36,913 nucleotides of DNA from a virus. The DNA lies in the IMG/VR virus record IMGVR_UViG_3300033144_003759, positions 1 through 36,913 of that record; one strand, 5' to 3'. The position numbers and the translations under genes were made by a program. Positions within the stretch are counted from its first letter, which is position 1. Each line of letters starts with the position of its first letter. The notes under the pieces were generated by a model that saw only the letters and a list, made by a program, of their open reading frames with translations, had not been told where the DNA came from and searched no databases. This document shows, in pieces, positions 8,106 through 23,828 of this stretch.

Positions 8106-8170
8106 CTTGCAAAGATAAGGCGAGACGATTAAGATAAAGACAGACCAAGAAACAAAGGGCTCCCGAAATG
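8106..8170 (+). repeat. Promoter/leader direct repeat, copy 1
   Basis: About 65 bases covering the promoter, leader, ribosome-binding site (AAAGGGCTCCCGAA) and start codon of the next gene. By eye, the copy at 9062-9127 differs by three substitutions and one extra A. Similarity continues weakly into the first coding triplets (AACACCG, then AACCGAAACC). A shortened version of the ribosome-binding part also precedes ATG 8546. Confidence 0.8.
8107..8135 (+). promoter_or_regulatory. Predicted sigma70-type promoter, copy 1
   Basis: TTGCAA at 8107-8112 and TAAGAT at 8130-8135 are separated by exactly 17 bases. The surrounding 40 bases are A-rich in an otherwise GC-rich genome. The same arrangement, nearly base for base, recurs at 9063-9091. 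Transcription would start about 25 bases before ATG 8168. Conservation of a non-coding stretch in two copies supports a regulatory role. Confidence 0.6.
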
Positions 8171-9061: not shown

Positions 9062-9127
9062 CTTGCAAAGCTAAGGCGAGACGATTAAGATAAAGACAGA
9101 CTAAGAAACGAAGGGCTCCCGAAAATG
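9062..9127 (+). repeat. Promoter/leader direct repeat, copy 2
   Basis: Second copy of the 65-base element at 8106-8170, ending at the start codon of the gene at 9125. The near identity of a non-coding stretch implies a recent duplication or selection for identical expression. Confidence 0.8.
9063..9091 (+). promoter_or_regulatory. Predicted sigma70-type promoter, copy 2
   Basis: TTGCAA at 9063-9068 and TAAGAT at 9086-9091 are separated by 17 bases, identical in layout to copy 1. The -35 box begins two bases after the stop of the upstream gene, so nearly the whole gap is regulatory. Confidence 0.6.
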
Positions 9128-15311: not shown

Positions 15312-15422
15312 ACATTTGTCCAGCTAGGCGCCGGACCCGGTTCGGCGCTAGGCTTCGGTTGCTCGATTGGGAGCGCGGGAACGGGCCGGTTTCCGTGAGC
15401 GTCTCCGCGCTTTCACCTCGCA

Positions 15423-15460
15423 AACGCCGACGGCCCTCGGCGTTAGCGGGGGTTTTTTTT
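15423..15460 (+). promoter_or_regulatory. Hairpin plus T8 run abutting the replication gene start
   Basis: AACGCCGA (15423-15430) and TCGGCGTT (15437-15444) form a perfect eight-base stem with a six-base loop. AGCGGGGG then eight Ts follow, ending directly before ATG 15461. GGGGG is probably the ribosome-binding site. The layout could be an attenuator or an RNA structure controlling access to the start. As a terminator it is imperfect because eight bases separate stem and T-run. Confidence 0.5.
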
Positions 15461-16483
15461 ATGTCCTTACCTTGGATCAAGCTCGCGACCGGGCTCCCCG
15501 AACACCCGAAATCGGACAAGCTCGCCGACATTCTCGACGAGCCGAGGGCGTGGTCGCACGTTGTCGAGCTTTGGCTTTGGGCGGCGCGTGTGCGCCCCTC
15601 CGGCGACCTCTCCGACCTCTCCCCCAAAATGATAGCTCGCCGGTCCGGCTGGACCGGAGACGCCTCCGCGTTCGTTGCTGCGCTCGAGGGCTCCGGCTTT
15701 CTCGAGGGCGGGCTCCTAGTCGATTGGGACCAATGGCAAGGCGCGCACCGCGAGAAGTTCGTCCGCGACCGTGAGCGAATGGCGGCAACGCGAGCCGAGG
15801 CCAAAGCGGCTAAGTCGCGCGACAGTCACGCGACCAAGCAACCAAACGCCGACCCGCCAGACAATCGCGCGACCGTCGCGGGAGCATCGCAAGACGATAG
15901 CGAGACGGGGCAAGAGTCGCGCGACGGTCGCGCGACGGTCGCGGGTGAGAGGAGAGGAGAGGAGACGAGAGAATTAAACACCCCCCTAACCCCCCTCGCG
16001 GGGGGGACCGAGCCGGATTTCGGCTCCGCCTCTTTAACCGCCGACCAAATCCTCGAGGAGCGTCCCGACGATGGGCGCACGTTCGCCGAGCTTGCTCTCG
16101 AGCAATGGCCCGCGCTCGACGGATTCGAGGGACGGCCTAGCGTGCAAACTGTCGTTGCGGAGGCTCTCGCGGACGATCGAGGGCTGCGCCGAATGGGCGG
16201 CGACGTCGCGCTTTGGCTCGACCGGAAACTCCGCGCAGCCTATGACGCGGCGCGTATTTCGTGGGCCTATGAGCAAAACGCGCACAGCGGCGATCCTACG
16301 CTCAGCCCGGCGGCGCGCGACCGGCGGCGCGTTGCCGAGAACGACCAAAAAACCCGGCACGAAACGGCCCGGCGCGCGATGCTCAGGCCAGCCCGCGAGG
16401 GGCCGGTCGACACGGAGCCGACCGAGCTTTCCGGCCTGATCGACTCACTCCAAAGGGGGGCAAATGCGCGTGATCCGACCTAA
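15461..16483 (+). CDS. Replisome-organiser/DnaD-like replication protein
   Basis: A 340-residue protein from ATG 15461. The first 110 residues resemble the N-terminal winged-helix of phage replisome organisers: WIKLATGLPEHPKSDKLADI, then DLSPKMIARRSGWTGD and a G-F-L-E-G strand ending VDWDQWQG. A basic and polar linker (residues 112-185) carries repeated SRD and ATVAG peptides. The C-terminal 130 residues are helical and may bind the host helicase. Beneath the linker, the DNA has clustered 11-base palindromic repeats and a purine/AT tract, the arrangement seen when an origin lies within an initiator gene. Helicase loading is inferred. Confidence 0.65.
   Translation: MSLPWIKLATGLPEHPKSDKLADILDEPRAWSHVVELWLWAARVRPSGDLSDLSPKMIARRSGWTGDASAFVAALEGSGFLEGGLLVDWDQWQGAHREKFVRDRERMAATRAEAKAAKSRDSHATKQPNADPPDNRATVAGASQDDSETGQESRDGRATVAGERRGEETRELNTPLTPLAGGTEPDFGSASLTADQILEERPDDGRTFAELALEQWPALDGFEGRPSVQTVVAEALADDRGLRRMGGDVALWLDRKLRAAYDAARISWAYEQNAHSGDPTLSPAARDRRRVAENDQKTRHETARRAMLRPAREGPVDTEPTELSGLIDSLQRGANARDPT
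15814..15948. repeat. Iteron-like array of 11-bp palindromic repeats (candidate replication origin)
   Basis: Units of consensus GTCGCGCGACN occur as tandem groups: 15814-15824 and 15825-15835; 15864-15874 and 15875-15885; 15916-15926, 15927-15937 and 15938-15948. Groups start 50-52 bases apart, about five helical turns. The core GTCGCGCGAC is a perfect palindrome. The array lies in the linker of the putative initiator gene. Confidence 0.6.
15945..15980 (+). other. Purine-rich and A/T tract beside the repeat array
   Basis: After the last repeat unit, the + strand is almost pure A and G (GAGAGGAGAGGAG) and then AATTAAA (15972-15978). In a very GC-rich genome this is the local low-stability stretch expected of an unwinding element. 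A CCCCCC-TCGC-GGGGGG hairpin follows at 15990-16005. Confidence 0.45.
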
Positions 16484-19235: not shown

Positions 19236-19588
19236 CGATCACGGACACAAACGGGCGCCCGTACCTCGACGGCGAGGCCGTCGAAATTCGGCGGGAGGTC
19301 GAGGCGACAACGCTCGCAGGGATTGGCCGGAACGTGCTCCCGTGTTGCCTTTGTGGCCTCGAGATACTGCACGGAGCGATCGACGGCGACGAGCGCGAAC
19401 TCGCTAGGATTTTCAGATCGCAACGTCATCTTGGCGTCTTTTGGGTGCCGGTCCGGGACGAGGAGCACCTCGCCGAGTGTTTCGATCCGCCGCCGTCGAC
19501 GTCGAGGTTTTGGGGCGACCGTCACGAGCGAGCCAGCTACAAGGCTTGGCGGCAAAAGCTCGCGGCACGAAACCGAGCCGGAAAGTGA
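19232..19588 (+). CDS. Hypothetical zinc-binding-like protein
   Basis: A 118-residue protein from ATG 19232 (ATGA overlap). A cluster C-C-L-C-G at about residues 38-42 with nearby His and Cys residues could bind zinc. The end is basic and helical (RASYKAWRQKLAARNRAGK). The preceding part alternates charged helices and short strands. No known family. Its TGA overlaps the GTG of the next gene. Confidence 0.6.
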   Translation: MTITDTNGRPYLDGEAVEIRREVEATTLAGIGRNVLPCCLCGLEILHGAIDGDERELARIFRSQRHLGVFWVPVRDEEHLAECFDPPPSTSRFWGDRHERASYKAWRQKLAARNRAGK

Positions 19589-19815
19589 GTATTCGCGACC
19601 GTATCCTCGGCCGGCGACCAATCGAGGCGGACGGCGACGAGGGTCCGGCGACCGTCGCGGGACCGTCGCGCGACCTCTCCCGGTGCTCCCTCGACGATTG
19701 CGAGGGCCGGCTAGGTCCAGCCTATGGCGTTCTCGCGAATTCCTCGACGATCCGCGCGTGTATCCGCTGCGGCTACGTCGTCGATCTGAAAAGAATGATG
19801 ATCACAAAGGGCTAA
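19585..19815 (+). CDS. Small zinc-ribbon-like protein
   Basis: A 76-residue protein from GTG 19585 (GTGA overlap). Four cysteines are arranged as C-x4-C, then a gap, then C-x2-C (ACIRCGYVVDLKR), fitting a zinc ribbon. Its N-terminal half contains PATVAGPSRDLSRC, the same short peptide as the linker of the replication protein, encoded by the same 11-base repeats (19643-19675). Probably binds nucleic acid; the shared peptide and DNA repeat suggest a link with the origin-like array. Confidence 0.6.
   Translation: MSIRDRILGRRPIEADGDEGPATVAGPSRDLSRCSLDDCEGRLGPAYGVLANSSTIRACIRCGYVVDLKRMMITKG
19643..19675. repeat. Second cluster of the 11-bp palindromic repeat
   Basis: Three adjacent 11-base units (19643-19653, 19654-19664, 19665-19675) match the consensus GTCGCGCGACN; the last is perfect and the first has two mismatches. 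It lies 3.7 kb from the array in the replication gene. Only these two loci show tandem units in a reading by eye; single partial matches occur elsewhere. Confidence 0.55.
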
Positions 19816-22397: not shown

Positions 22398-22748
22398 ATG
22401 ACGGGGCCGGATCGATTGACAGATGCGCCTGCGGCCCTCGACGCCATGCGCGCGGAGCGCGACGCGGAGATCGAACGTAGCGATGACCTGTGTGGGCAGG
22501 TATCCACCGCCCTCGTTGAGCGAAACGCGATGCGCGCGGAGCGTGATGAGGCTAGCGGCGTAGCAATGGCGCTGTCCGCGCAGGTTGACGGCCTAACCCG
22601 CCAACTGGTGAACGTGCGCGAGGTTGTTTTTGGGTTCGGAGATGCGTGTGACGAGTGGATCACGCTTGAGCACATGCAAAATAAGACGATACCGGACCTG
22701 CAAGACATGATTGACGAGGTCAAGAAAGCGATGTGCGCCGATGACTGA
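22398..22748 (+). CDS. Coiled-coil cassette protein with foreign codon usage
   Basis: A 116-residue protein from ATG 22398 (GAGAGGGGCGAAGGC upstream). An 84-base upstream extension to TTG 22314 looks non-coding. Two internal AMRAERD repeats and a helical body lead to VDGLTRQLVNVRE and a final KAMCADD. The product of 22841-23107 shares VDDLTRQLANVR and the same KAMCADD ending. By eye, CTG is the leading Leu codon here, unlike most of the window where CTC dominates. The gene looks like an acquired module. Function unknown. Confidence 0.6.
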   Translation: MTGPDRLTDAPAALDAMRAERDAEIERSDDLCGQVSTALVERNAMRAERDEASGVAMALSAQVDGLTRQLVNVREVVFGFGDACDEWITLEHMQNKTIPDLQDMIDEVKKAMCADD

Positions 22749-22848
22749 CGACGTGCTGAGGGGCCGCGCAGCGATGCGCCGACGGGTGGCGCAAGCGGCC
22801 ACGCTACTGGCGCGTCGGTCCGACAAAACGATGTGTGCCGATGATTGA
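22741..22848 (+). CDS. 35-residue mini-gene ending in MCADD
   Basis: ATG 22741 overlaps the previous stop by eight bases. The product is basic and helical (RGRAAMRRRVAQAATLLARR) and ends MCADD, as do its neighbours on both sides. The following ATG again overlaps its stop by eight bases. The repeated linkers support real coding or a degraded cassette member. Function unknown. Confidence 0.45.
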   Translation: MTDDVLRGRAAMRRRVAQAATLLARRSDKTMCADD

Positions 22849-23107
22849 CGATACGAAAAGAGTAGACCTGTGGACTGCGGGCAAAGGCTCTTGTTACGGG
22901 TCGGACGGGTGGATGGAATACTTCCACGACGACGAAGTGGATGAGTTCGACGAGGTGTATGTGGAGTACGCCGACCACAAGAAAGCCGTTGACGACCTCA
23001 CCCGCCAACTGGCGAACGTGCGACGCAAGCTGAGCAAATCAAACCGCGAGGAAGGCGAACCAACCATAAACAATGCGGAGTGGAAAGCGATGTGCGCCGA
23101 TGACTGA
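22841..23107 (+). CDS. Acidic cassette protein
   Basis: An 88-residue protein from ATG 22841 (GTG 22835 is also open). Its N-terminal half is acidic and aromatic (GWMEYFHDDEVDEFDEVYVE). The second half shares VDDLTRQLANVR and the KAMCADD ending with the product of 22398, so the two genes appear to have exchanged or duplicated their 3' parts. Function unknown. Confidence 0.6.
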   Translation: MIDDTKRVDLWTAGKGSCYGSDGWMEYFHDDEVDEFDEVYVEYADHKKAVDDLTRQLANVRRKLSKSNREEGEPTINNAEWKAMCADD

Positions 23108-23828
23108 CGACGACAACACGTCAGGCGTTGCGTTCGATCTACGCCTCGGCGATTGGGATACAGCCCTCGAGGACGTCGAGGAGGTCGACGCCGTGATCAC
23201 CGATCCGCCATACGGTGCTCGGACGCACAGCGACGAGAGCCTCGCAAAGCAGGTCGTTAGCGCGACCGGGCAAGCAACCCGCCGCCGCCTCGGCTACTCG
23301 GCTTGGGAGCCGGAGAACGTCGCCGAGTTTGTCGCCGCTTGGGCTCCAAGGTGTCGCGGTTGGTTTGTCGCAATGACGAGCCACGATCTAATTCCCGACT
23401 GGGAAAGGGCATACCTCGAGGCCGGTCGCTACGCATTTGCGCCGGTCCCCTGGATAGACAAGCGCCCGCGATTGATCGGCGACGGGCCTAGCTCCTGGAC
23501 TTGTTACCTAATGGTGAGCCGCCCGCGGACAACTGAATTTTCGCGCTGGGGTTGTCTCCCCGGCGCGTACCTCCCCGGCGCGCGTCCAGCCTCTCCGGTT
23601 GTCGGAGGTAAGCCGCTCTGGCTCCTCGAGGCTCTCATCCGCGACTATACGAAGCGCGGCGACCTCGTTTGCGATCCGTGTGCGGGTTGGGGGACGACGC
23701 TCCTCGCCGCCGTCTCGCAAGGCCGGCGGGCGATCGGCTCCGAGGTCGACCCGAAAACGCACGCGCTCGCGATCGAGCGGGCGGCGAGCGGCGTTACGCT
23801 CGATATGTTCGCGGGGTTGCCGCAATGA
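23100..23828 (+). CDS. DNA N6-adenine/N4-cytosine methyltransferase
   Basis: A 242-residue protein from ATG 23100, eight bases inside the previous gene. DPPY at 35-38 is the catalytic motif. The C-terminal part (KPLWLLEALI, DLVCDPCAGWGTTLLAA, then a G-S-E-V-D-P-K end) holds the S-adenosylmethionine-binding motif, so the order is catalytic motif first, as in beta-type enzymes. The middle part would read the target sequence. No partner restriction nuclease is seen; the HNH gene downstream is of packaging type. Likely role: protecting phage DNA or marking it. Target unknown. Confidence 0.82.
   Translation: MTDDDNTSGVAFDLRLGDWDTALEDVEEVDAVITDPPYGARTHSDESLAKQVVSATGQATRRRLGYSAWEPENVAEFVAAWAPRCRGWFVAMTSHDLIPDWERAYLEAGRYAFAPVPWIDKRPRLIGDGPSSWTCYLMVSRPRTTEFSRWGCLPGAYLPGARPASPVVGGKPLWLLEALIRDYTKRGDLVCDPCAGWGTTLLAAVSQGRRAIGSEVDPKTHALAIERAASGVTLDMFAGLPQ

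Follow-up and report, generated by a model that had tools for sequence, protein, structure and literature searches.

Few phage replication origins have, to our knowledge, been mapped by experiment. We analysed a viral DNA of 36,913 nucleotides (IMG/VR record IMGVR_UViG_3300033144_003759; its full length is hereafter called the window), in which a short palindrome is repeated inside a replication gene, raising the question of whether the phage starts copying its DNA at this array. A preliminary description had proposed a candidate origin at this place. The proposal is strongly supported by homology of the gene product to phage initiators, recurrence of the repeat in other initiator genes, selection on the repeat above the peptide level, and co-variation between site and protein; the phage very probably does start DNA copying at the array within its initiator gene.

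Palindromic repeats within the initiator gene

The gene and the array comprise the following features (window positions):
15461..16483, + strand: replication initiation protein gene, 340 aa (product P0001); phrog_9474, E 9e-19; phrog_3926, E 1.4e-8
15461..15823, + strand: N-terminal domain, the last part of which is a long basic helix (aa 89-121) in AlphaFold2 models
15814..15834, no strand: iteron group 1, two palindromic 11-bp units
15864..15906, no strand: iteron group 2, two units and two degenerate units in register
15916..15947, no strand: iteron group 3, three units of which the first two are exact

The unit is a 10-bp palindrome of the GTCRCGYGAC type, repeated with a period of 11 bp. 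Compared with GTCGCGCGAC, the units of group 1 (starts 15814 and 15825) match at 10 and 9 of 10 positions, those of group 2 (15864 and 15875) at 9 and 8, and those of group 3 (15916, 15927, and 15938) at 10, 10, and 7, while degenerate units at 15886 and 15897 (7 of 10 each) prolong group 2 in register. The seven units of about 11 bases that had been described, in groups of 2, 2, and 3 starting 50-52 bases apart, are present, with group starts 50 and 52 bp apart. Across the window, the spectrum of site spacings has its peak at 11. The three exact sites in 15461-16483 were reached by none of 5000 synonymous-codon shuffles of the gene, and its two tandem pairs with at least 9 matches in both units by one of 5000. 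For the whole window, five tandem 11-spaced pairs with at least 8 matches in both units compare with a mean of 0.21 and a maximum of 3 in 200 third-order Markov windows. Because the units occupy all three reading frames (encoding SRD, RAT, and VAG), the array is a DNA repeat and not a peptide repeat.

The protein encoded around the array

P0001 matched three PHROG families, phrog_9474, 3926, and 2509, none of them an O-like family of the lambda type ('replication initiation O-like'). AlphaFold2 predicted its N-terminal domain with confidence, the helix motif RDRERM being encoded at 15764-15781, and gave nearly all of the linker (aa 134-201) a pLDDT below 50. The array encodes part of this predicted disordered linker, so that its earlier placement in the linker of a replisome-organiser-like gene agrees with both the phrog_9474 match and the model. 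Comparison with viral folds returned 'Primosomal protein 1' and 'Replisome organizer'. Searches of the PDB with the domain found no solved structure alike, which we counted against an origin, and sequence-profile matches to CRP/FNR-type regulators were weak only (E about 0.005).

A Pfam search of P0001 gave no family at E values up to 0.01, and the Phage_rep_org_N model (PF09681) was not matched. Profile-profile comparison of the P0001 group with the Phage_rep_org_N group nevertheless gave a probability of 97.1% and an E value of 6.5e-11, pointing to remote homology, a score that may partly reflect the motif itself because the DNA motif had served to select the relatives in the profile and SRDSH closes the aligned stretch. 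Only three close relatives of P0001, 25-28% identical, were detectable; this also weighs against an origin, and most of the comparative evidence consequently comes from more distant families. P0001, alone or together with these three, retrieved nothing further from viral or bacterial collections, a tblastn search gave a single weak match, and the window showed no DNA similarity to named phages. Among the subset of window open reading frames (ORFs) that was tested, none was DnaC- or DnaB-like, another point against the origin reading.

The same site in other phage initiator genes

To find the site irrespective of the genes around it, we searched 2.9 million viral contigs for the tandem GTCRCGYGAC pattern GTCRCGYGACNGTCRCGYGAC. 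This search returned 45 loci, whereas two palindromes scrambled from the same bases gave 3 and 2. Of these 45 arrays, about 37 fall within an initiator ORF, as called by Pfam, PHROG, or evident homology, and usually just behind the N-terminal domain; this figure takes in two near-duplicate loci and three assigned only because they resemble other members. In one locus (L013), the array lies 43 bp upstream of the initiator gene, and the linker of that gene carries no site. A variant with 12-bp spacing was present at 28 loci, again mainly in initiator-like ORFs, and the GTCRCGYGAC site also occurs in AT-rich phages. In full viral records, the array is usually, indeed nearly always, single per genome. 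A match of the scrambled control GCTRCGYAGC (L076, position 8656) lies in a 375-aa ORF with a repetitive tail, possibly a further initiator that has an iteron type of its own.

In 34 initiator genes, site spacings peaked at 11 (58 pairs, 33 of them given by the selection of the loci), 22 (26), 33 (15), and 44 (9). The 50-52 bp spacing of the groups gave no peak in these relatives, so that this part of the preliminary description is not supported. Among named phages, the site is present in the replisome-organizer genes of the Staphylococcus phages phiPV83, 55, 52A, 187, and PH15 and of the Latilactobacillus phage TMW 1.1386 P1, and a 43-mer composed entirely of GTCGCGCGAC had no match. The sections of these Staphylococcus and Latilactobacillus phage records that we considered do not mark the site as an origin. 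In bacterial genomes, the tandem pattern gave 46 matches, of which 9 had initiator homology; since these matches are mostly background, finding the pattern is by itself no proof of an origin.

A second set, of Phage_rep_org_N loci, was gathered by the N-terminal domain alone so that the site itself played no part in the choice; some indirect selection may persist, because the query sequences came from loci chosen by DNA. A few loci of this set were uninformative owing to shortened translations. The 62 distinct linkers contained 82 GTCRCGYGAC sites, compared with 13.2 expected from synonymous shuffles, and 27 of the 62 had at least two. Per kb, there were 1.56 sites within the gene and 0.026 beyond it. 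Both in the window and in its relatives, the array is under selection above the peptide level.

Co-variation of the site with a basic helix

Linkers without the GTC site carried GTARCGYTAC, the same palindrome with a symmetric change at positions 3 and 8. Searching viral DNA for GTARCGYTAC gave at least 120 loci, and 98 of the matches listed fit the N-terminal domain profile, while several others among those listed lie outside initiators and are peptide repeats in tail-fibre-like proteins. Site type followed the helix residue after R-x-R: among 141 distinct sequences, K or N at this position accompanied 60 GTC and 2 GTA sites, and other residues, mostly V or Q, accompanied 73 GTA and 3 GTC sites, the position having been chosen after inspection of the same data, so that a nominal Fisher probability for these counts is to be read with reserve. 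The simpler rule that N versus T in the helix sets the site had to be refined; N also pairs with GTA if Q or V follows RxR.

Because clades could mimic such a link, a tree was built from the N-terminal domain without the helix. The underlying alignment has 113 columns, and the resolution of the tree is poor. The best topology requires 25 switches of site type; counting supported branches only, there are at least 10. The helix differed in the same direction in all nine independent pairs that differ, and one pair did not differ (p 0.004). As helix and array lie within about 100 bp of each other, joint switches could also be co-transfer by recombination, which we counted against the origin reading; such co-transfer may explain the joint switching without any contact between helix and site, and it also fits a pair that works as a unit.

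These patterns raise the prospect of a portable cassette in many dissimilar phage initiators, consisting of a basic helix ([ND]RxR[K/N] or TRxRV type) and its own 10-bp palindromic iterons within about 100 bp, in which one helix residue would set GTCRCGYGAC or GTARCGYTAC, an initiator-to-origin code moving between phages as a unit; we regard the case for this cassette as evenly balanced. The same trend is seen in initiator-like proteins of another family, where L233 combines NERVKRYR with sites of the GTA type and L034 combines AERARRYR with sites of the GTC type, a hint that the code may extend beyond Phage_rep_org_N.

Flanking elements and a second array

Three further features lie beyond the iterons:
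15944..15978, + strand: candidate unwinding region, a purine-rich tract with AATTAAA at its end and weak AT enrichment
15990..16006, no strand: C6/G6 hairpin of the preliminary description, not above chance
19643..19674, no strand: second array within a small ORF (19585-19815), made up of three 11-bp units in tandem

The purine-rich and AATTAAA tract that had been noted after the units is real and includes the longest pure purine run of the window (19 nt at 15947). The 60 nt past the last exact unit are 40% AT, compared with 33% for the gene, a weak AT-rich element that counts against an origin in the window. In the 34 initiator genes, the 60 nt past the array are 54% AT, compared with 45%, and higher in 28 of the 34 (p 5e-6). 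The proposed C6/G6 hairpin can be drawn, but its stability does not exceed that of shuffled sequence (z -0.57). Cumulative GC skew, suggested earlier as a check, does not turn at the array locus, and this too we set against the origin reading. Upstream of the gene, a terminator-like hairpin with a T run (15416-15461; z -3.6) ends directly at the initiator ATG and leaves scant space for a ribosome-binding site; initiator expression may be controlled there by read-through or refolding.

The second array, which was absent from the preliminary description, was found by self-comparison of the window together with reading of the sequence. Its units match at 8, 9, and 10 of 10 positions, and no such triplet arose in 2000 simulated windows that kept third-order base composition but not codon structure. 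The window contains other repeats as well: a 63-nt direct repeat (8106-8168 and 9062-9124, 95% identical), each copy lying just upstream of an ORF start (8168 and 9125), so that the two are possibly duplicated promoter or operator regions, and two families of 30-35 nt repeats at 22584-23112, around small ORFs near a methyltransferase gene at 23073.

Relation to known phage origins

At the lambda origin, palindromic iterons followed by a strand-biased tract lie inside the initiator gene O, with units of about 18-19 bp. The locus described here shares the palindromic iterons, the strand-biased tract after them, and the position inside an initiator gene, and differs in its 11-bp period.

In SPP1, oriL lies in gene 38, where direct repeats in the gene for the initiator G38P stand beside an AT-rich element, and a second initiator-binding site, oriR, lies about 13 kb off among late genes (PMC6316719). 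Repeats inside the initiator gene and a second site elsewhere in the genome, in the window a putative one, are common to both phages, and the adjoining AT-rich element of SPP1 has a weak candidate counterpart in the window; the second array of the window, however, is 3.7 kb away in an early gene instead of about 13 kb, and the likeness drawn here is one of layout. Another locus from the DNA search (L009, 2167-2399) has two non-coding GTCACGTGAC arrays and an AATAAG-rich tract among apparent head genes; its placement recalls SPP1 oriR (PMC6316719), and by this analogy the arrays are a possible oriR-like second origin.

In TP901-1 and Tuc2009, the origin is rich in repeats and lies within the rep gene (PMC8965321). 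By our own reading of the sequences, the units of Tuc2009 and r1t recur every 11 bp, but the replisome-organizer genes of TP901-1, Tuc2009, and r1t have other unit sequences and not the GTCRCGYGAC palindrome. In the Staphylococcus phage 80alpha, complementation of an ORF20 mutant in trans failed, which implies that the gene contains an origin (PMC5499656), and the 80alpha record marks a putative origin within ORF20. This protein has a C-terminal tail in common with phiPV83 orf20, but its N-terminal domain is a different one and its gene lacks a GTCRCGYGAC array. Phage_rep_org_N genes such as orf20 of the Staphylococcus prophage phiPV83 have the same GTCRCGYGAC sites, which follow an N-terminal domain containing a basic helix; P0001 differs from them in having DRERM in the helix instead of NRxRK and in matching no Pfam family.

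The locus, an initiator gene with repeats beyond chance and beyond the peptide, very probably belongs to the class of embedded origins. The earlier statement that the unit has no described match is only in part correct: no description of the 10-bp site turned up in the open literature searched, but the site is present in the Staphylococcus and Latilactobacillus phages named above, and the kind of system is already known, embedded origins in initiator genes being well documented (PMC5499656, PMC6316719, PMC8965321). What appears undescribed in that literature is that unlike initiators share one 10-bp site and that this site co-varies with the helix.

Alternative readings and a model for initiation

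It is quite unlikely, in our assessment, that the array is an operator by which the initiator or a repressor controls its own gene or limits replication, with the origin elsewhere, even though initiators of iteron replicons often use their own sites for control too. The second array at 19643-19674 does sit in another early gene, and the hairpin directly before the initiator gene implies that its expression is probably regulated. About 350 bp into the gene is nevertheless an unfavourable position for an operator, and many unlike phages have the array in this same position; one array is usual in full records, and the best-studied relatives with this layout have their origin in the gene-internal repeats (PMC6316719, PMC8965321, PMC5499656).

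Binding of the palindromes by another phage protein or a host factor, with a replication role still possible, would fit the presence of the site beside initiators with unlike-looking N-terminal domains, and binding of the array by the initiator is a prediction here. We consider such a binder very improbable, given that the iteron type switches along with the initiator helix and that, within Staphylococcus, phiPV83 (rep_org_N) has the site while 80alpha, with another N-terminal domain and a similar C-terminal tail, does not. That the repeat is a by-product, either a peptide repeat or a replication-slippage tract in the linker of a GC-rich gene, is scarcely credible: the linker is disordered, GC-rich sequence makes CGCG palindromes cheap, and some GTA-type matches that do not fall in initiators reflect simple peptide repetition in tail-fibre-like proteins, but the 11-bp period shifts the reading frame at every unit, synonymous shuffles fail to reproduce the repeat, AT-rich phages have the site too, and in L013 it adjoins the initiator gene outside the coding part.

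We find it highly likely that the array constitutes the initiator-binding iterons of a phage replication origin, inside the DNA for the initiator's own disordered linker. Beyond sequence anatomy, selection, and co-variation, the mechanism of origin function that we suggest is modelled on SPP1, lambda, and the lactococcal phages. Probably as a dimer, the N-terminal domain would read the palindrome by means of its basic helix, whose coding sequence adjoins the array; since the 11-bp period is about one helical turn, successive initiators would be stacked along the same side of the duplex. Such a stack may strain or open the tract just downstream of the array, and the C-terminal part of P0001 would recruit a helicase or helicase loader. 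The array at 19643-19674 would be a second initiator site, acting as a minor origin or as a fork barrier like SPP1 oriR.

A DNA motif tied to a protein residue would make origins readable from sequence across many phages, and it would predict which initiator acts at which origin. With two natural initiator classes (NRxRK and TRxRV) and two 10-bp sites (GTCACGTGAC and GTAACGTTAC), this specificity of initiator for origin is directly testable.
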